DNA of 64,000 bases from Motilibacter aurantiacus (GTDB lineage: Bacteria; Actinomycetota; Actinomycetes; Motilibacterales; Motilibacteraceae): NCBI RefSeq assembly GCF_011250645.1, contig NZ_JAANNO010000007.1, positions 70,635 to 134,634 of the forward strand, in the 5' to 3' direction. The position numbers and the translations under genes are program-made. The notes beneath the pieces were generated by a model, which was given only the letters and a program-made list of their open reading frames with translations, was not told where the DNA came from and did no database searches. Shown piece after piece: positions 3,859 through 59,538 of this stretch (within the stretch, counting starts at the first letter, position 1; each line of letters opens with the position of its first letter).

Positions 3859-4383
3859 TCAGGCCGGAGGCTCGCCCCACGACGGCGTGCCCATCGCGTC
3901 GAGCAGCTTGCGCCGCACGCGCTTGGGCAGCCGGTCGACGTACACGATGCCGTCGAGGTGGTCGTACTCGTGCTGCAGGCAGCGCGCCAGCAGGCCGGTC
4001 CCCTCGACGCGCACCGGCTTGCCGAACTCGTCGAGCCCGCTGACCGCCGCCCACGCCGGGCGCGGCACGACGTTCCACACCCCGGGCACGGACAGGCAGC
4101 CCTCCTCGGACTCGTCGAGCTCACGCTCCGCCCCGACCTCCAGCACCGGGTTGACGAGCGTCGCGACGACGTTCTCCCCGTCGGCGCCGGGACAGTCGAT
4201 GACGAAGATGCGCAGCCCGACGCCGACCTGCGGCCCGGCGACGCCCACCCCGTCGGCCGCGGCCATGCTCGCCCGCATCCGCTCGGCGAGGGCCACGAGC
4301 TCGTCGTCGAACGTCTCGACGGGGCGGGCGGCGCGGTGCAGCACAGGGTTGCCGTAGCGGGTGATGAGCGGAGCGTCTGCCAT
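3859..4383 (-). CDS. def: Peptide deformylase
   Basis: A 174-aa metalloenzyme that removes the formyl group from the N-terminal methionine of new proteins. All three family motifs are present: GVGVAGPQVG near residue 45 (motif 1, with AG where AA is usual), EEGCLSVPG with the metal-binding Cys, and QHEYDHLDG with the two metal-binding His and the catalytic Glu. The ATG at 4383 gives the usual length. It is divergent from the ROK kinase gene (44 bp between the two starts) and its end lies only 10 bp from the end of the GGDEF-EAL gene, so the latter pair is convergent. Confidence 0.95.
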   Translation of the reverse strand: MADAPLITRYGNPVLHRAARPVETFDDELVALAERMRASMAAADGVGVAGPQVGVGLRIFVIDCPGADGENVVATLVNPVLEVGAERELDESEEGCLSVPGVWNVVPRPAWAAVSGLDEFGKPVRVEGTGLLARCLQHEYDHLDGIVYVDRLPKRVRRKLLDAMGTPSWGEPPA

Positions 4384-6954: not shown

Positions 6955-9573
6955 TCAGGTCTGCGTCGCCAGCCGCAGCGGGCGGGCCTTGCGCAGCACC
7001 GACGCGGGCTCGTTGACGCCCGGCCGTGGCGGCAGCGCGTTGTCGCGCAGCCACGTCTCGAGCCGCTCGGGCGGGAGCGGCCGCGACATGAGGTAGCCCT
7101 GGGCGATGTCGCATCCCATGGCCGTGAGCTTGTGCCAGCTGAGCGCGTCCTCGACGCCCTCGGCGACGACCTGCTTGCCCATGAAGTGGGCCAGCTGGAC
7201 GATCGCCTCGACGATGGCGGCGTCCTCGGGCTCGGTGGCCATGCTGAAGACGAACGACTTGTCGATCTTCACCTCGGTCACCGGCAGCCGGCGCAGGTGG
7301 GCGAGGGAGGAGTAGCCCGTCCCGAAGTCGTCCACGGACACCTTCACCCCGTGGCCGGTGAGCTGCTCGAGCGCGGGCACCGCGCGGGCCCGGTCGCTCA
7401 TGATGCTGGTCTCGGTCAGCTCGAGGGTCAGCAGCGCGGGCGGGACGCCCTGCGCCGCGAGCACCCGGACCACCTGAGCGGGGAAGCCGGGGTCCAGCAG
7501 CGCGCGCACCGAGATGTTGACCGCGACCGGGATGCTCTTGCCCTCCTCGAGCCACTGCCGGCACTGCGCCAGCGCGGTCTCGAGCACCCGGAGCGTCAGC
7601 GGCGTGATGACCCCCGTGTGCTCGGCGAGCGGGATGAACTCGTCGGGCGGGACGAGGCCGCGGTTCGGGTGCTGCCAGCGGGCGAGGGCCTCGACGCCGA
7701 CGAGCTCGGCGTCGCTGAGCCGCACCTTGGGCTGGTAGTAGACGACGATCTCGTCGGCGCGCAGCGCGCTGCGCAGCTCGGCCATGAGGGCCAGCCGCCG
7801 GGGGCCGCCCTCGTCCAGGGACGGGTCGTAGACGCGTACGCCCAGCGCCTGGGTCTTGGCGGCGTACATCGCGATGTCCGCGTGCTGCAGCAGCGCGGCG
7901 GCGTCGGTGCCGTGCTCGGGGTGGAGGGCGATGCCGACCGACCCCTCGACGTCGATGGCGGCGTCCTCGAACGGGACCGGGCCCATGAGCGCCTCGGAGA
8001 TGCGCCGCCCGAGCTGCTCGGCCTCGTCGCGCTGGCCCGGGGCGGGCAGCAGGACGGCGAACTCGTCACCGCCGAGCCGCGCGACCGTCGCCCCGTCGGG
8101 TGCGGCGAGCAGCAGCCGCGAGGCCACGGCGCGCAGCAACTGGTCGCCGCTGTGGTGGCCCAGCGCGTCGTTGATGTCCTTGAACCGGTCGAGGTCCATG
8201 ATCATGACGGCGAACTGCCGGCGGGCGGCGACCGCCTCGTCGAGCCGCTCCATGAAGTAGCCGCGGTTCGCCAGGCCGGTCAGGTGGTCGTGGTGGGCGT
8301 CGTGCCGCAGCCGGTCGAGCAGCTGGCTGTTCTCCAGCGCGAAGCCGGTGTGCGTCGCGAGGGTCTCCAGCAGGCGCAGGTCGGCAGGGGTGAAGGTGCG
8401 CGCGTCGGCCTGGTGGCCCGCCACCTCCAGCGTGCCGAACGCCCCGGTGTCGCCCACGAGCGGCACGACCATGGCGTCGCGCGCGCCGCGGGCCGCCAGC
8501 CACTCGCGCAGCCGGGGGTCGGTCGTCCCGCGGGCCACGAGCAACGCCTTGCGGGAGAGCAGCACCTCGTCGTGGATCTCGTCGCGGGCGGGGGCCCGCG
8601 GGGCCTCGGCCGGCGTCCCGCTGCCGTGCACCGCCAGGCCCACCGGCCGCTCACCGGGAGCGGGCCCGCTGTCGAAGCCGGAGGAGTCGGCGACCGCGAT
8701 CACCTCGTCCTCGTCGTCCGGGCCGTGCACCCGGATGACCGCGCGCTCGGCGTTGAGCAGGGAGCGGGCCTGCTCGAGCAGCTCGGGCACCACGTCGCCC
8801 CAGCGGGACCCGTTGCGGGTGGTCTGGGAGAAGTCGTAGAGCCGCTCGAGCGCGAGGTGCCGCTCCAGCAGCGTCGAGTAGGTGCGGTACGCCGTCCAGA
8901 GCACGCCGGCCAGCGGCAGCAGCAGCATCCACTGCCAGCCGCCGGGCTTCACGAGCGCGACGACGACCAGCCCGAGCGCGGCGCTGAACACCCCGCCCAC
9001 GCCGAGGACCGCCGCGACCCAGTCCGAGCGCTGCCGGCTCGGGGGACGCCCCTCGGTGAGCCAGATGACGGCGCGCAGGGCGGTGAGGTCCAGCGCGTTG
9101 ACGGCGAAGACGCCGACGAAGACGGCGAGGGCCGAGCGCAACGTCAGCTCGGCCCCGTCCCCGATGTACTCGAGCACCACGATGAGCACGAGGCACTCGT
9201 TGGCCGACAGCGCGAGGTTGAAGGCGGCCTTGGTCGCGGGGGTGCGGTTCCTCAGCACGACCGCGGCGGTGGCCAGCACGTGCGAGAGCAGGAACCCGGC
9301 GGGGCCGACCAGGAAGAGCGCCACGACGCCGGGGAGCTCGCTGAAGTGGATCGACCGGGTCTGCTTGCCGACGATGACGTGCAGCTGGCCGAGCTCGGTG
9401 CAGATGAAGGCCACGACCAGGGCGGCGACGATCCAGGGCTGTTCCAGAGTGGTACGCCGCGGGCCCGTGGCGTACCACAGGCCCGCGGCGAGGAGCACGA
9501 GGGCAGCCGTCAGCAGGGTGGCGCGGGCGTTCGCCGACAGCGGCCCACGCAGACCCCTTCCACGGTCCGCCAC
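6955..9573 (-). CDS. Membrane-anchored GAF-GGDEF-EAL c-di-GMP signalling protein
   Basis: An 872-aa protein. The first about 230 residues hold roughly seven hydrophobic helices forming a membrane sensor-like module, followed by a GAF domain (about 250-400), a GGDEF domain with intact RLGGDEF near residue 498 and an EAL domain with EALARW near 627, DDFGTGYSSL and KIDKSF. Both active sites look complete. The RxxD inhibitory site is absent from the cyclase half. The start is GTG at 9573. It lies on the same strand as, and just beyond, the secreted subtilase gene, but a 20-bp palindrome between them probably separates the transcripts. Confidence 0.92.
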   Translation of the reverse strand: MADRGRGLRGPLSANARATLLTAALVLLAAGLWYATGPRRTTLEQPWIVAALVVAFICTELGQLHVIVGKQTRSIHFSELPGVVALFLVGPAGFLLSHVLATAAVVLRNRTPATKAAFNLALSANECLVLIVVLEYIGDGAELTLRSALAVFVGVFAVNALDLTALRAVIWLTEGRPPSRQRSDWVAAVLGVGGVFSAALGLVVVALVKPGGWQWMLLLPLAGVLWTAYRTYSTLLERHLALERLYDFSQTTRNGSRWGDVVPELLEQARSLLNAERAVIRVHGPDDEDEVIAVADSSGFDSGPAPGERPVGLAVHGSGTPAEAPRAPARDEIHDEVLLSRKALLVARGTTDPRLREWLAARGARDAMVVPLVGDTGAFGTLEVAGHQADARTFTPADLRLLETLATHTGFALENSQLLDRLRHDAHHDHLTGLANRGYFMERLDEAVAARRQFAVMIMDLDRFKDINDALGHHSGDQLLRAVASRLLLAAPDGATVARLGGDEFAVLLPAPGQRDEAEQLGRRISEALMGPVPFEDAAIDVEGSVGIALHPEHGTDAAALLQHADIAMYAAKTQALGVRVYDPSLDEGGPRRLALMAELRSALRADEIVVYYQPKVRLSDAELVGVEALARWQHPNRGLVPPDEFIPLAEHTGVITPLTLRVLETALAQCRQWLEEGKSIPVAVNISVRALLDPGFPAQVVRVLAAQGVPPALLTLELTETSIMSDRARAVPALEQLTGHGVKVSVDDFGTGYSSLAHLRRLPVTEVKIDKSFVFSMATEPEDAAIVEAIVQLAHFMGKQVVAEGVEDALSWHKLTAMGCDIAQGYLMSRPLPPERLETWLRDNALPPRPGVNEPASVLRKARPLRLATQT

Positions 9574-9595
9574 GACGCAGTCCTATCCCATCGCT

Positions 9596-9615
9596 CCACC
9601 TCGCGCGCGAGGTGG
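9596..9615. terminator. Palindromic hairpin beyond the subtilase gene
   Basis: CCACCTCG-CGCG-CGAGGTGG is a perfect 20-bp palindrome placed 6 bp past the stop codon of the minus-strand subtilase gene and 22 bp before the start of the GGDEF-EAL gene. It can form a stable short hairpin and fits a terminator, or a regulatory site for the GGDEF-EAL gene. Confidence 0.55.
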
Positions 9616-9621
9616 GACCTC

Positions 9622-11307
9622 CTAACCCCAGAGCTCAGAGTTCCACCTGAGGCCGTTCCAGCGCAGGCCGTTCCAGCGAAGGCCGTTCCACCGCAGGCCG
9701 TTCCAGCGCAGCCCGTTCCAGCGCAGCCCGTTCCAGCGCAGCCCGTTCCACCGCAGCCCGTTCCACCGCAGCCCGTTCCACCGCAGCCCGTTCCACCGCA
9801 GGCCCGCCCAGGCGCCCGCCGCCTCGGCGTCGTCCGCGGCCTGGGCCTCGTCCCAGCCGTCGGGCAGCGCGAAGAGCTTGACCGGAGCCTTCGGCGCCGG
9901 GGCCGGGGCGGCGAGCGCGGCGTCGATGTCGAGAACGCCTCCGGGGGCCGCGGCCGGGGAGGCGAGCGGCTCGGCGGTCGTGGCGAGCAGCGTCTTGACC
10001 TGGTCGGGCGTCAGCTCGGGGCGCTCGGACAGCAGCAGGGCCGCGGCGCCGCTGACGACGGCCGCCGCGTGCGACGTGCCGCTGCCGCGGAACCAGCGGT
10101 CGCCCACGCGGGCGCCGGGGTAGGACTGGTCGAGCGTGGAGCCCGGGGCGCGCAGGCCCAGCACCGAGTCGCCGGGCGCGAAGACGTCGACGCCGCGCTC
10201 CTCGTTGCCGAGGTTCGTGTACGCCGAGGCCGCCGCGCCGTTCGCCGTACGCGTGGAGGAGCCGACCGCGATCACCGCGGGGGCGATGGCGGGCGAGGTG
10301 ACCCGCTCGTACTCCGAGCCGTCGTTGCCCGACGAGGTCACCACGACGATGCCCGCGTCGACCGCCGCGCTGGCCGCCCAGGCGAGCGGGTCGACCGTGT
10401 GGCTGTCGGGGCCGTAGCCGCCGACCGACAGGTTGAGCACGCGGACGTTGAGGCCGTGGTCGCGGCCGTGCTCGACCACCCAGCCGATCGCCATGACGAG
10501 GTCACCCAGGCTGACCTCGCCGTCGGTGCCTGCGACCCGGATGTTGACCAGCCCGGCGTCGGGGGCGATGCCGTCGGCGGCGTCCGGGTCGCCGATCGGG
10601 CGGGCCGCGTCGTCGCCGGCGATGATGCTCGCCATCACGGTCCCGTGGCCGAAGGTGTCGATCCCCTGCGCAGCCGCGTTCGCGGCCTCCGGCTGTGCGG
10701 GGTCGAGCGTGGAGTCCGGGCCGGTGACGACCTTGGCGCGGCCGTCGAGGCCGGGGACGGGGGCGACGCCGGAGTCGATCAGCGCGACGTCGACGCCCTG
10801 GCCGGTGGCCCCGCGCTGCCATGCGGCGGTCGCACCCACCTCCTCGGCGATGCTGTGCAGCGTCCGGCCCGCGGCGCCGGCGCCGTCCGCGCTCGACTCC
10901 AGCAGCTTGACCTGCAGGTCCGGAGTCACCCACCGCACGCCCGGCGCCCCGGGGAGGGCCGCGACGGCCGAGCCCGGCACCTCGGCGACGAGGGTCGCGA
11001 CGTCCGATGCGGCGTCGACCACCCGCCCGCCCGCTGCCGTGATCGACCGTGAGACGACGGCCTGGTCCGCGGCGAGGGCACCGACGACGACGCGGACCGG
11101 GGCGCCGAGCGCGTCGGCCGCGGACGCCACCCCCGGCAGCGGGCCGTCCTCACCGGCGGCGGCAGCGCCGGCTCCGGGGCCGGCCACCCCCGTGCCGCAG
11201 GCGAGCACCGCCGCAGCCAGCGCGGCCGTGGCCGGCGAACGTCGGCCGACACCGGCCAGGGACCCTGCGTGCGCCCCGCTGGACGGGACAAGAAGTCGAG
11301 CGAGCAT
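9622..11307 (-). CDS. Secreted S8 subtilisin-like protease with GLRWN repeat tail
   Basis: A 561-aa serine protease, probably exported. Residues about 20-55 form an Ala-rich signal-like segment, and a propeptide-like region follows. The catalytic triad is visible as Asp in VALIDSGVAP, His in TFGHGTVMAS and Ser in GSGTSHAAAVVSG (the usual GTSMAAP is altered). After the catalytic domain (to about 465) comes a short Ala/Asp-rich linker and then 11 perfect copies of GLRWN (residues 502-556) ending in SELWG. I chose the ATG at 11307 with AGGAGG upstream; the frame is open further. The tail may bind the wall, a partner or the protease itself; that is not known. A long non-coding leader lies upstream. 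Confidence 0.9.
   Translation of the reverse strand: MLARLLVPSSGAHAGSLAGVGRRSPATAALAAAVLACGTGVAGPGAGAAAAGEDGPLPGVASAADALGAPVRVVVGALAADQAVVSRSITAAGGRVVDAASDVATLVAEVPGSAVAALPGAPGVRWVTPDLQVKLLESSADGAGAAGRTLHSIAEEVGATAAWQRGATGQGVDVALIDSGVAPVPGLDGRAKVVTGPDSTLDPAQPEAANAAAQGIDTFGHGTVMASIIAGDDAARPIGDPDAADGIAPDAGLVNIRVAGTDGEVSLGDLVMAIGWVVEHGRDHGLNVRVLNLSVGGYGPDSHTVDPLAWAASAAVDAGIVVVTSSGNDGSEYERVTSPAIAPAVIAVGSSTRTANGAAASAYTNLGNEERGVDVFAPGDSVLGLRAPGSTLDQSYPGARVGDRWFRGSGTSHAAAVVSGAAALLLSERPELTPDQVKTLLATTAEPLASPAAAPGGVLDIDAALAAPAPAPKAPVKLFALPDGWDEAQAADDAEAAGAWAGLRWNGLRWNGLRWNGLRWNGLRWNGLRWNGLRWNGLRWNGLRWNGLRWNGLRWNSELWG
9640..9804 (-). repeat. Eleven 15-bp tandem repeats encoding GLRWN
   Basis: A 165-bp in-frame array at the 3' end of the subtilase gene. 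Every unit encodes Gly-Leu-Arg-Trp-Asn, but the units differ at synonymous positions (Gly as GGC or GGG, Arg as CGG or CGC, one Leu CTT and a terminal CTC), so the peptide is conserved more strictly than the DNA. This argues for selection on the peptide rather than a very recent slippage event. Confidence 0.95.
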
Positions 11308-11607
11308 CTCGAACTCCACCCTCCTGGGCCGGTCCGAGCGCCGGCCCCGAATCGGACTGTGCGACCGGCGGCCCCCAGGCGAGGACACCGGCTCTTCGGC
11401 AGGCACTGGGTGCTCCTTGACCCGGCGCCGGACATCTCGTCGCGGATGCCTCCCCCCGGGCCTCCACGTTGACGTCACCGCGAGCAACAGGATGCTGTCA
11501 CAAAGTAACGGTGGGTGGAGCCGTGGCATCGCGGCACAAGCCGCCGAAGACCCAGGGTGACCGAGACAAAACCTTAGGTGCCAACGATCGCACTGTGCGA
11601 CGAAATC

Positions 11608-11655
11608 GGCGGCCATAGCTCAGTTGGCTTATCAGCACTCGTCGCACTGAGTGAC
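11608..11655 (+). other. tRNA-like D-arm fragment, not a full tRNA
   Basis: The stretch GGCGGCCATAGCTCAGTTGG matches the acceptor/D-arm consensus of a tRNA (TA-GCTC-AGTTGG), and a CACTC / GAGTG stem follows. The second half of the D-stem reads GCAC instead of GAGC, the loop of the next stem is 8 nt, and no T-arm (GTTCRANNC) follows. It is either a degenerate tRNA remnant or chance similarity. Confidence 0.3.
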
Positions 11656-11780
11656 CAGAGACGGCGTCGCACAAAAGACGAGGGAACAAATGCGGAGAAT
11701 TCTCGCCGCTGCGCCGGGGCCGGGTGGCCCAGGTCACGCTCGTCGCGCCCCGCCCCGCGTCCGGCGGGACGGTGACGTCC

Positions 11781-11810
11781 TCCCGACGCCTCCCGACGCC
11801 TCCCGACGTC
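11781..11810. repeat. Three tandem copies of TCCCGACGCC
   Basis: Three directly adjacent 10-bp units (TCCCGACGCC, TCCCGACGCC, TCCCGACGTC) lie just beyond the stop codon of the minus-strand hypothetical gene. They are non-coding in the annotation used here and have no recognised function. Confidence 0.7.
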
Positions 11811-11828
11811 TCCGCGGCAGAGCGGGCC

Positions 11829-12686
11829 TCAGCGCCGGCCGGAGCCGTCGCCGCGCTCGGGCAGCCGGGTGTCCGGCACCGCGTCGGGCCGTGGCGCGGT
11901 GCGCCCCCGGGGCAGCGGGTCGGGGACGCCGAGCGGCCCGCCGGCGGGCAGGCCGCTGGTGGGCACGTCCGTGCCCGTCGTCCCCGCCGGCCCCGTCGGG
12001 CCGGTCGCGCCGGTGGGGCCGGAGTTGGCCAGGGCGGCGAGCACCGGCTCGGCGAGGAAGACGTCGAACGTCGCGTTGCAGGTGGTGAGAGCCTCGAGGA
12101 GCAGCGGCACGATGGCCTCCTCGTCCACCGCCTCCGGTGCCCGCTCGAAGCGCTCGCCGCGCGCCACGCGCCGCAGGTAGGGCACCGCGGTGCCGATGCC
12201 CGTGCTCGCCGTGGGCAGGACGTCGAGGCTCGGCGGCATGGGGCCGGCGGCCAGCCCCGAGAGGAACCGCGCCGCCTCGTCGCGGGCGTCGAAGGCCGCG
12301 AGCGTCTCCAGCGCGATCGAGTGCTCCACCACGTCGCGGGTGTTGACCTCCGCCTCGGCGGCGAACCCCTCGAGCAGCAGGAGCCGGGCGGCCTGCGCCT
12401 GCCGGTGCGCGCGCACCCACCAGGACGCCGCGACGTACTCCACCGCGGTGGTCGCCCGCAGAGCGATGGGCTGCACGCCCTCGAAGACGGCCAGCTGCCG
12501 GTCCAGGGCCGGGAGCCCCGGCGTACGCGCATGGCCGCGCGCCGAGCCGGAGGGCCCGTGCGCCGACCGTCCTGCTGCGCGCGCCGCAGGGTCCGCGGCG
12601 AGGAGCTCGGCCAGCCCGGGCGCGGCCTGGGCCGACCACGAGTCCATCGCGGCGCGCATCCTGCGGGCGACGTCGTCAGCACTCAT
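11829..12686 (-). CDS. Hypothetical protein with collagen-like GPTG tail
   Basis: A 285-aa protein that I cannot assign with confidence. The middle (about 75-190) is helical, with patterns such as VEYVAASWWVRAHRQAQAAR and VNTRDVVEHSIALETLAAFD, like uncharacterised actinobacterial proteins of the DUF5677 type. The C-terminal about 55 residues are low complexity, opening with collagen-like triplets (GPTGATGPTGPAG) and then Pro/Gly/Arg-rich sequence. I chose the ATG at 12686 with AGGAAGG about 13 nt upstream; a GTG at 12722 is also possible. No signal peptide or membrane helix is seen. Confidence 0.6.
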   Translation of the reverse strand: MSADDVARRMRAAMDSWSAQAAPGLAELLAADPAARAAGRSAHGPSGSARGHARTPGLPALDRQLAVFEGVQPIALRATTAVEYVAASWWVRAHRQAQAARLLLLEGFAAEAEVNTRDVVEHSIALETLAAFDARDEAARFLSGLAAGPMPPSLDVLPTASTGIGTAVPYLRRVARGERFERAPEAVDEEAIVPLLLEALTTCNATFDVFLAEPVLAALANSGPTGATGPTGPAGTTGTDVPTSGLPAGGPLGVPDPLPRGRTAPRPDAVPDTRLPERGDGSGRR

Positions 12687-14927: not shown

Positions 14928-16784
14928 TCAGCCCGACTGGGGCCCGGGAAGCGAGAGAACCGCCGGGGGCGCGGCGGCGACGACCTGGTTCCGGCCGCCG
15001 GACTTGGCCGCGTAGAGCGCGGTGTCGGCGGCCGCGATCAGGTCGGTCATGTCGCGCATCGCGTAGGTCAGGGTCGCGACGCCCACGGAGGCGGTGATCT
15101 TCGGGTACTCCGGCGGCCCGTCGATCTCCTCGATCGCCCGGCGCATGCGCTCGGCCACGATGAGCGCGGCGTCCGCGGCCGTCTCCGGCAGCACCACGAC
15201 CAGCTCCTCCCCGCCGTACCGGTAGGCGACGTCGCTGCCGCGCAGGCCCGCGACGACGGCCTGGGCCGAGCGCCGCAGCCACTCGTCGCCGATGGCGTGC
15301 CCGGCGGTGTCGTTGATGCGCTTGAAGTGGTCCAGGTCGATCATGCAGACACTGAGCGGGCGGTCGTAGCGGCGGGAGCGCCCGTACTCGTGCGGCGTCT
15401 CCTCCTCCAGGCTGCGCCGGTTGCGCAGGCCGGTGAGCCCGTCCAGGCGCGCCTGCTCGGTGACGCTGGCGTGCAGGCGGGCCGAGTCCAGGGCGGACGC
15501 GGCGCTCAGCGCGAGGGCCTCGAGCACCGAGTCCACCTGGGCCGAGTCCTCGTCGTCCCAGGCCTCGGCCTCGACCTCCATGACGCCGACGACGGCGCCG
15601 CGGACGACGAGCGGGAAGTACGTCATGGTGCCGACGGTGACCGTGCGGGCCTCCGCGGCCGAGACCTCCACGTGCGGCGGGGCGACGAGGCCCGCCGGCG
15701 GGCGGGCGCCCTTCGGGTCGTCGCTGCGCCGGATCGCGACGAACTCGCCGTCGGTCTGCCGCTCCCACACGACGGCGCGGGTCCGCCCCAGCTCGACGGC
15801 CGCGGCAGCGACCGACTCCGCGACGAACCGCGGGTCGAGCGACCCGGAGGTCTCGCGGGCGACGCGCAGGATGACCTGCAGCCGGGCGGCGAGCTGGCTC
15901 GCGGCCTCCTCGCGCATCATCCCGCGGGCCTGCTGGGCCTCGATGCGCCGGGCCATCGCGGCCAGGCCGTCGCCGAGCCGGCGGAACTCCGAGGACCCGA
16001 GCCCGGGGGCCTGGACGCCCAGCTCGCCGGCCTCCATCCGCGAGATCATGTCCAGCAGCGCGCGCACGGGGGCGTCGATGACGAGGGCCAGCTGGCGCCG
16101 GCGGCGCATCCCGACCCCGAAGATGCCGGCGACGACGAGCACGTTGATGCCGCCGGCCACCAGCAGGGTGTGGCGCTGGCTGTCGAGGGCGGCGTCCCGG
16201 CGGTTGGCGGCACGCTCGGTCGCCACCGACTGCACCGCGCGGTAGCGGTCGAACAGCGTCTTGCCCCGGGCCAGGAACGCCGACAGCTTCGCGGTCTCCA
16301 GGGGCTCGCCCGGCGGCACGGCCAGCCCCTCGCTCGCCCAGCTCACCGCCCAGGCGCGGTGGGCCAGGATGGTGTCGACGAGCATGCGGGTCTCGGTGGG
16401 GTCCCCGGCCACCAGCCCGATGAGCTCGTCCTCGGCCCGGTTGGTCTTCGTCGCCCCGGCGGAGTAGGCCGCGAGGAAGGACGGGTTGCCCGTCGCCGCG
16501 TACGCGCGCAGGCCCGTCTCCTGGTCGAGCATCCCCTCGTGCAGCAGCCGCAGCTGCTTGACCACGGCGGTGGTGAGCAGCGCCCGCGGCTGCACGACGA
16601 GCTGGCTGTACGCCGCGCTGGAGGCGATGGTGACGAGCAGCACCGAGAGAGCGAGCGCGAGGGCGCGCCAGAACCGGCGCAGCTCCCCCTGCAGGCTTCG
16701 GCGCTGGGCGTCGGCCTCGGCGTCGTCAGCGGTGCCGGGGTGCAGGCGTACGTTCACGGGGCGAATGTCGGCGCCCTGATCCAC
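14928..16784 (-). CDS. CHASE3-HAMP-GAF-GGDEF diguanylate cyclase
   Basis: A 618-aa membrane protein that should make c-di-GMP. A first TM helix at about 35-57 is followed by an extracytoplasmic CHASE3-type helical sensor with LRLLHEGMLDQETGLRAYAA, a second TM helix near 205-225, a HAMP linker, a GAF domain (about 300-445) and a GGDEF domain with GGEEL at about 523-527. The inhibitory site is present as RGSD, with its Asp six residues before GGEEL, so product feedback is likely. There is no EAL domain. The start is uncertain: GTG at 16784, with another GTG at 16757. It is divergent from the MocR-like gene. Confidence 0.92.
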   Translation of the reverse strand: MDQGADIRPVNVRLHPGTADDAEADAQRRSLQGELRRFWRALALALSVLLVTIASSAAYSQLVVQPRALLTTAVVKQLRLLHEGMLDQETGLRAYAATGNPSFLAAYSAGATKTNRAEDELIGLVAGDPTETRMLVDTILAHRAWAVSWASEGLAVPPGEPLETAKLSAFLARGKTLFDRYRAVQSVATERAANRRDAALDSQRHTLLVAGGINVLVVAGIFGVGMRRRRQLALVIDAPVRALLDMISRMEAGELGVQAPGLGSSEFRRLGDGLAAMARRIEAQQARGMMREEAASQLAARLQVILRVARETSGSLDPRFVAESVAAAAVELGRTRAVVWERQTDGEFVAIRRSDDPKGARPPAGLVAPPHVEVSAAEARTVTVGTMTYFPLVVRGAVVGVMEVEAEAWDDEDSAQVDSVLEALALSAASALDSARLHASVTEQARLDGLTGLRNRRSLEEETPHEYGRSRRYDRPLSVCMIDLDHFKRINDTAGHAIGDEWLRRSAQAVVAGLRGSDVAYRYGGEELVVVLPETAADAALIVAERMRRAIEEIDGPPEYPKITASVGVATLTYAMRDMTDLIAAADTALYAAKSGGRNQVVAAAPPAVLSLPGPQSG

Positions 16785-57798: not shown

Positions 57799-59538
<1,740 letters not shown>

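Follow-up and report, generated by a model that had tools for sequence, protein, structure and literature searches.

In the Agr and ComQXP systems of the Firmicutes, a short secreted peptide is encoded beside a multi-transmembrane (multi-TM) receptor, and the peptide and the membrane domain of the receptor diversify together; one such peptide, ComX, carries a key tryptophan. In yeast, alpha-factor is made as tandem Trp-containing peptides in one precursor, which is cut by the subtilase Kex2, the product being sensed by a multi-TM receptor. The PatA/PatG cyanobactin proteases are likewise subtilases, and their substrates are precursor peptides in which the cores are repeated; the LapD/LapG c-di-GMP system links an extracytoplasmic protease to a membrane GGDEF-EAL protein. 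MASE1 is placed among the sensory domains of unknown purpose in a 2022 review of c-di-GMP inputs (PMC8846402), in which a word search found no pheromone receptor. Further, the open-access literature searched yielded no account of subtilases with Trp repeats, nor of MASE9 or GGDEF-EAL receptors that sense peptides.

The locus considered here lies in a stretch of 64,000 nucleotides from Motilibacter aurantiacus (hereafter the window; contig NZ_JAANNO010000007.1, positions 70,635 to 134,634), and comprises a subtilase gene with a Trp-repeat C-terminus followed by a gene for a membrane GAF-GGDEF-EAL protein:

9622..11307, minus strand: putatively secreted S8 subtilase with Trp-repeat tail, 561 aa (signal-like N-terminus by eye)
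9961..10803, minus strand: Peptidase S8 domain, residues 169-449, with Asp178/His221/Asn328/Ser412 (Pfam PF00082, E 1.7e-39)
9640..9804, minus strand: 11 x GLRWN tandem repeat, residues 502-556, predicted to be disordered and proposed to act as receptor ligand or peptide precursor
9625..9639, minus strand: terminal SELWG, residues 557-561 (SGFWG in the Motilibacter deserti ortholog)
6955..9573, minus strand: membrane protein with GAF-GGDEF-EAL, the proposed cognate receptor, encoded 48 nt beyond the protease stop
8827..9507, minus strand: conserved multi-TM domain, residues 23-249, MASE9-related, with an ECF S-component-like model; the part common to partner genes
8335..8793, minus strand: GAF domain, residues 261-413 (Pfam PF01590, E 1.3e-13)
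7849..8298, minus strand: GGDEF domain with intact GGDEF motif at residue 501 (Pfam PF00990, E 5.2e-42)
7078..7782, minus strand: EAL domain with intact EAL motif (Pfam PF00563, E 7.7e-76)

In comparison with Agr and ComQXP, genes for Trp-repeat or tiny Trp peptides lie beside a multi-TM receptor gene in this locus and its relatives, export and the ligand role being putative here; this locus and its relatives differ in that the output is mostly GGDEF-EAL, the precursor is a subtilase tail or a small repeat protein, and the receptor domain is MASE9-related and S-component-like. The alpha-factor/Kex2 system offers the same elements of tandem Trp-peptide copies, a subtilase and a multi-TM receptor, but here they are bacterial, repeats and subtilase are combined in one protein, and release of the peptides is presumed. 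In the case of PatA/PatG (TIGR03895), the substrate is a separate protein, and the window protease scores 55.5 against a cut-off of 421. The pairing of a membrane GGDEF-EAL protein with an extracytoplasmic protease recalls LapD/LapG; however, LapG belongs to another protease family, and the window receptor scores 152 against the LapD cut-off of 1020. By analogy, the proposed system would work most like the peptide pheromone systems, and it resembles the logic of alpha-factor/Kex2 and the cyanobactins.

The protease scores 136 bits against PF00082 (cut-off 21.8) with D178, H221 and S412 in place, which identifies it as a Peptidase S8 enzyme. This domain is its sole Pfam match, the tail matching no Pfam family up to E=1, and every NCBIfam match of the protein falls below its own cut-off; against the curated T7SS mycosin model (TIGR03921) it scores 132 bits where 278.75 are required. 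The eleven GLRWN units are all identical in peptide sequence and are followed by SELWG and a TAG stop. At the DNA level, Tandem Repeats Finder reports a 15-bp array at 9640-9806 (11.1 copies, 93% match, score 241), and a two-unit GLRWN DNA pattern has 10 matches in the 4.59-Mb genome, all at this locus, as against 0 for the reversed control; the array is far above chance. Comparison of the units with one another yields 84 pairwise synonymous and 0 non-synonymous codon differences, and the same holds for a GSSWR tail (L072; 387 versus 0) and a GLTWR tail (L091; 54 versus 0), these pairwise counts not being independent of each other. That several independent changes include no replacement at all speaks against recent slippage alone. 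An earlier note, made from the sequence alone, had described a complete S8 protease ending in eleven GLRWN units plus SELWG, a unit outside any named domain, and conservation of the peptide rather than the DNA; its description was exact in each of these respects, and its coordinates (9622-11307), though right, leave out the other half of the module, namely the partner gene at 6955-9573.

The AlphaFold2 model of the protease has a confident protease core and leaves residues 479-561 without structure, with a pLDDT of 24-36 in the tail. This bears on the idea of an adhesin, or of the spaced aromatic ladder binding wall glycan that the earlier note had offered as one function for the tail. The regular Trp spacing could indeed present aromatic residues in this manner; against this, the tail has no predicted structure, neither a carbohydrate-binding nor any other wall-binding family is detected by Pfam or NCBIfam, the conserved partner is a membrane receptor, and the ladder would leave both the receptor linkage and the small Trp peptides described below unexplained. 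We regard it as very improbable, and of the earlier proposals it is another, a ligand for a partner, which best fits the genomic evidence. A pentapeptide-repeat beta-helix was also considered for the tail and dropped, given the lack of a model match in the window tail, the unfolded model and the periods of 6 and 7 in relatives; the only pentapeptide-repeat score was an isolated low-complexity GETHR one for the GSSWR tail of L072. No riboswitch was detected upstream of the protease, Rfam giving no match at E up to 0.5 across 9000-12500. The 48-nt gap between the protease and receptor genes contains a perfect 20-bp palindrome, CCACCTCGCGCGCGAGGTGG (9596-9615), possibly an intercistronic hairpin or operator. 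The window holds a second S8 protease, matched to S8 at 58375-59055, in which a long linker of Pro-Thr repeats (58143-58310) is present and a Trp tail is not.

The partner protein, on account of its intact GGDEF and EAL motifs, belongs by sequence to the c-di-GMP turnover proteins. Its membrane domain of ~226 residues has no Pfam match in the window protein and, specifically, none to MASE9 (PF20972, cut-off 24.3) up to E=1, whereas receptors of a second subfamily pass that cut-off (L213 at 25.1 bits, L216 at 35.2 bits). The domain is thus related to MASE9, likewise a membrane domain, though it is not filed there. It is modelled with eight predicted helices and one hairpin joined by short loops, and in a Foldseek search with this model (pLDDT 67) the top 10 PDB matches were all ECF proteins, i.e., S components and CbiM (probability 0.92-1.00, E 0.02-0.08, TM 0.3-0.6). 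ECF S components bind their small ligands inside the membrane, and the resemblance to them is best treated as a lead. A viral fold search with the receptor returned no match. Near the module, at 14928-16784 on the minus strand, the window encodes another membrane GGDEF-type protein, of 618 aa.

A genome-collection scan together with 60 related genomes recovered about 60 related Trp-tail proteases from Actinomycetota, Chloroflexota and Acidobacteriota, in which the Trp recurs every 5, or sometimes 6 or 7, residues and numbers about 5 to 26 per tail. In Actinomycetota the spacing is nearly always 5, the longest tails hold 22 to 26 Trp, and units include GSSWR, GAGWR, GTAWT, GANWY, ASSWS and ARMWG; in Chloroflexota the periods are 5 (NSVAW), 6 (ADGLSW) and 7 (GGYASWS), and in Acidobacteriota 6 (GDQSIW, GSSAVW). 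Hence, Trp and its spacing are conserved across phyla, and the remaining residues vary among genes yet are retained by orthologs. The window genome itself encodes three further Trp-tail S8 proteases (GLTWR x9, GHNWS x3-4 and a GRRWS-rich mixture), and comparison with Motilibacter deserti shows that orthologs retain their units while paralogs differ: GLRWN x11 in the window against x9 in the M. deserti ortholog (L024), GLTWR x9 against x7, and GHNWS in both. Between the window and M. deserti pairs, the receptor domain is 90% identical and the protease 73%. In uniform tails the differences between units are synonymous; many other tails mix several units. The earlier note had called for a search for related tails and a comparison of copy number, and had named as refuters random C-termini in relatives and recent slippage without conservation; neither was borne out, given that close relatives keep their Trp tails, and that the units diverge only synonymously and are retained in M. 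deserti. One Trp-tail protease (L096) has apparent F5/8-type (discoidin-like) stretches, called by eye, between the S8 domain and its GSRWT tail. A candidate fusion of protease and GGDEF-EAL protein (L023) was rejected, being two ORFs in different frames. Two Chloroflexota subtilases with 6- and 7-residue units (L026, L027) neighbour an opposite-strand gene that by eye is adenylate-cyclase-like/ATPase/TPR rather than a receptor.

An iterated profile built from the first 255 residues of the window receptor matches the gene downstream of the protease in about 40 loci, including one from Chloroflexota (L031), and a similar membrane-GGDEF gene is seen by eye in the equivalent position in a dehalococcoidian (L028). 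The outputs of these partners vary, comprising GAF-GGDEF-EAL, GAF-PAS-GGDEF-EAL, GAF-PAS-HisKA-HATPase and GGDEF-HD-GYP, while the membrane domain stays; it is therefore this domain, and not the enzyme, that constitutes the conserved partner. Among loci with enough flanking DNA, a receptor-domain gene adjoins 47 of 59 Trp-tail S8 proteases and 0 of 32 tail-less ones (Fisher p=5.7e-15; one GSSWWG tail, L112, missed by the automatic tail test, was reassigned by hand), a comparison that does not separate the tail from the protease subfamily, the tail-less group being also the more distant one in sequence. The receptor lies directly downstream on the same strand in 45 of the 47 and is divergent in 2. 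In the window genome, all 4 S8 proteases found with Trp tails have a receptor-domain neighbour, and none of its other S8 proteases adjoins a receptor-domain match among those listed. Viewed in reverse, 48 of the 81 strong receptor-domain matches in the 60 genomes have an S8 match no more than 2.5 kb away; more broadly, the window-type domain is encoded in 69 of 297 sampled actinobacterial genomes (E<=1e-15). The linkage of protease and receptor as a module is firm. It also bears on the possibility that the tail is a functionless slippage product on an ordinary secreted subtilase, to which the tandem DNA repeat and the differing copy number in two congeners (11 and 9) might lend some credence. 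This neutral expansion is already contradicted by the exclusively synonymous unit differences and the receptor linkage (p=6e-15), and further by equal Trp spacing with different units across phyla; we give it almost no credence.

A more substantial rival takes the linkage at face value and assigns the tail a mechanical role: the Trp-rich segment would tether the secreted protease to the membrane or wall, and the receptor would interact with the protease domain, not the tail, for example through being cleaved by that domain or by retaining it, in the manner of LapD/LapG. Tryptophan partitions to membrane interfaces, the protease-receptor linkage is strict, and loose anchoring would suit mixed-unit tails. 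However, an anchor needs neither exact spacing nor ortholog-specific units, no wall-binding family is detected by Pfam or NCBIfam, and the predicted receptor domain offers a protease only short loops between helices. This proposal stays alive because of the mixed tails and the 12 of 59 Trp-tail proteases that have no partner nearby (e.g., L076, L081, L098, Chloroflexota L026/L027 and Acidobacteriota L030/L035), and we consider it unlikely but deserving of serious attention. The same partnerless proteases count against a ligand role for the tail, as do mixed units, which are superfluous for a single pheromone.

Receptor loci without the protease address the confounding of tail and protease subfamily in the linkage test. 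Among 20 receptor genes without a nearby S8 match, of which 4 are cut by contig ends, a small repeat ORF lies directly upstream in 5 cases: ASNGWQ x4 behind a signal-like N-terminus (L166), ATWN x4 (L168), SHTWE x4 (L174), TPGTGWH x4 with no signal (L167), and a secreted repeat at about 4000-4380 with about 20 copies of GASLT and no Trp (L180). That only 5 of the 20 have a repeat peptide, one of them devoid of Trp, again speaks against the ligand role. Three of these loci (L166, L167, L168) look like versions of one locus: identity is 72-74% over the GGDEF-EAL parts but only 50-54% over the membrane domains, and no two have the same Trp motif. Two receptor-domain genes (L178, L175) have an OmpR-type response regulator as their neighbour, and no peptide was found at either; the output of L178 is a histidine kinase with a receiver domain.

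In the second receptor subfamily, some members of which are MASE9 by Pfam, there is a tiny ORF whose C-terminus consists of a hydrophobic segment plus a short Trp tail (GAGTKWMN, GAGVKWN, GAANKWW, APGKWH, GAGWKF, GAGWKW). Under a rule written after these examples had been seen, 7 of 36 loci in the first set pass, compared with 0 antisense and 5 of 3600 shuffles (~0.1%). With the rule unchanged in a wider search, the best 12 matches all had one or two such ORFs (7 known before, 5 new) and none antisense, and among the next 18 a single ORF of a different kind passed. Five loci (L255-L258, L261) have two tiny GAGxKWx-ending ORFs upstream of MASE9-type GGDEF-EAL genes; two such ORFs, when searched, matched nothing in Pfam or NCBIfam. 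These protease-free loci indicate that the Trp peptide and receptor are the more constant feature and the protease optional, and the linkage of same-family receptors to small Trp proteins and tiny Trp peptides is difficult to reconcile with a protease tether. They do raise a different alternative, namely that unreleased Trp segments dock in the membrane domain of the receptor as its permanent subunit or inhibitor, the receptor being freed by an external cue or proteolysis. Each tiny peptide resembles one TM helix whose KW would sit at the outer interface, and these peptides could be membrane subunits rather than secreted, which counts against the ligand role. Nevertheless, large exported arrays on a soluble protease would be an odd form for a TM subunit, as would the wide range of Trp counts among the tails, and we deem this alternative improbable.

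Tail similarity tracks receptor-domain similarity when the output domain is corrected for (rho 0.19, Mantel p 0.012), and to a weak extent when the protease is allowed for (partial rho 0.12, p 0.013). This putative coevolution signal is weak and, like the modest receptor model (pLDDT 67, Foldseek E 0.02), tempers the case for a ligand. Still, a tail serving as ligand for a cognate receptor fits best with the linkage, the variable outputs, the protease-free Trp peptides, the units kept by orthologs, the synonymous-only differences, the correlation of tail and receptor, and the S-component-like model. On balance, and arguing from linkage, we lean towards the tail being such a ligand, probably as a tandem peptide precursor, which would feed c-di-GMP or histidine-kinase output.

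Under this preferred reading, the protease and the membrane GGDEF-EAL protein would form a single two-gene signalling module. The protease would be exported, and its disordered Trp-pentapeptide tail would be the part recognised by the multi-TM domain of the partner, most likely after being cut into short GLRWN-type peptides by this protease or another. Binding would shift the cellular c-di-GMP output or, in other lineages, a histidine-kinase or GGDEF-HD-GYP output, and the unit sequence would set which receptor is addressed, such that paralogous pairs within one cell stay insulated. Within this scheme we infer that the protease is exported, that its tail is recognised by the receptor, that proteolysis releases the peptides, and which way c-di-GMP changes. 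A stronger version, in which the subtilase carries and releases many copies of its own pentapeptide pheromone, a dedicated S-component-like receptor converts peptide concentration to c-di-GMP or kinase output, and each unit defines a specificity group with several insulated channels per cell, is put forward tentatively, as a conjecture with somewhat less than even prospects.

Taken together, the sequence evidence suggests an undescribed peptide-to-receptor signalling system. If this is true, a large class of membrane GGDEF-EAL and kinase sensors that are now orphans in Actinomycetota and Chloroflexota would gain inputs, extracellular peptides would be tied directly to c-di-GMP, and the question would be testable with short synthetic peptides whose sequences can be read from the genome beside each receptor.
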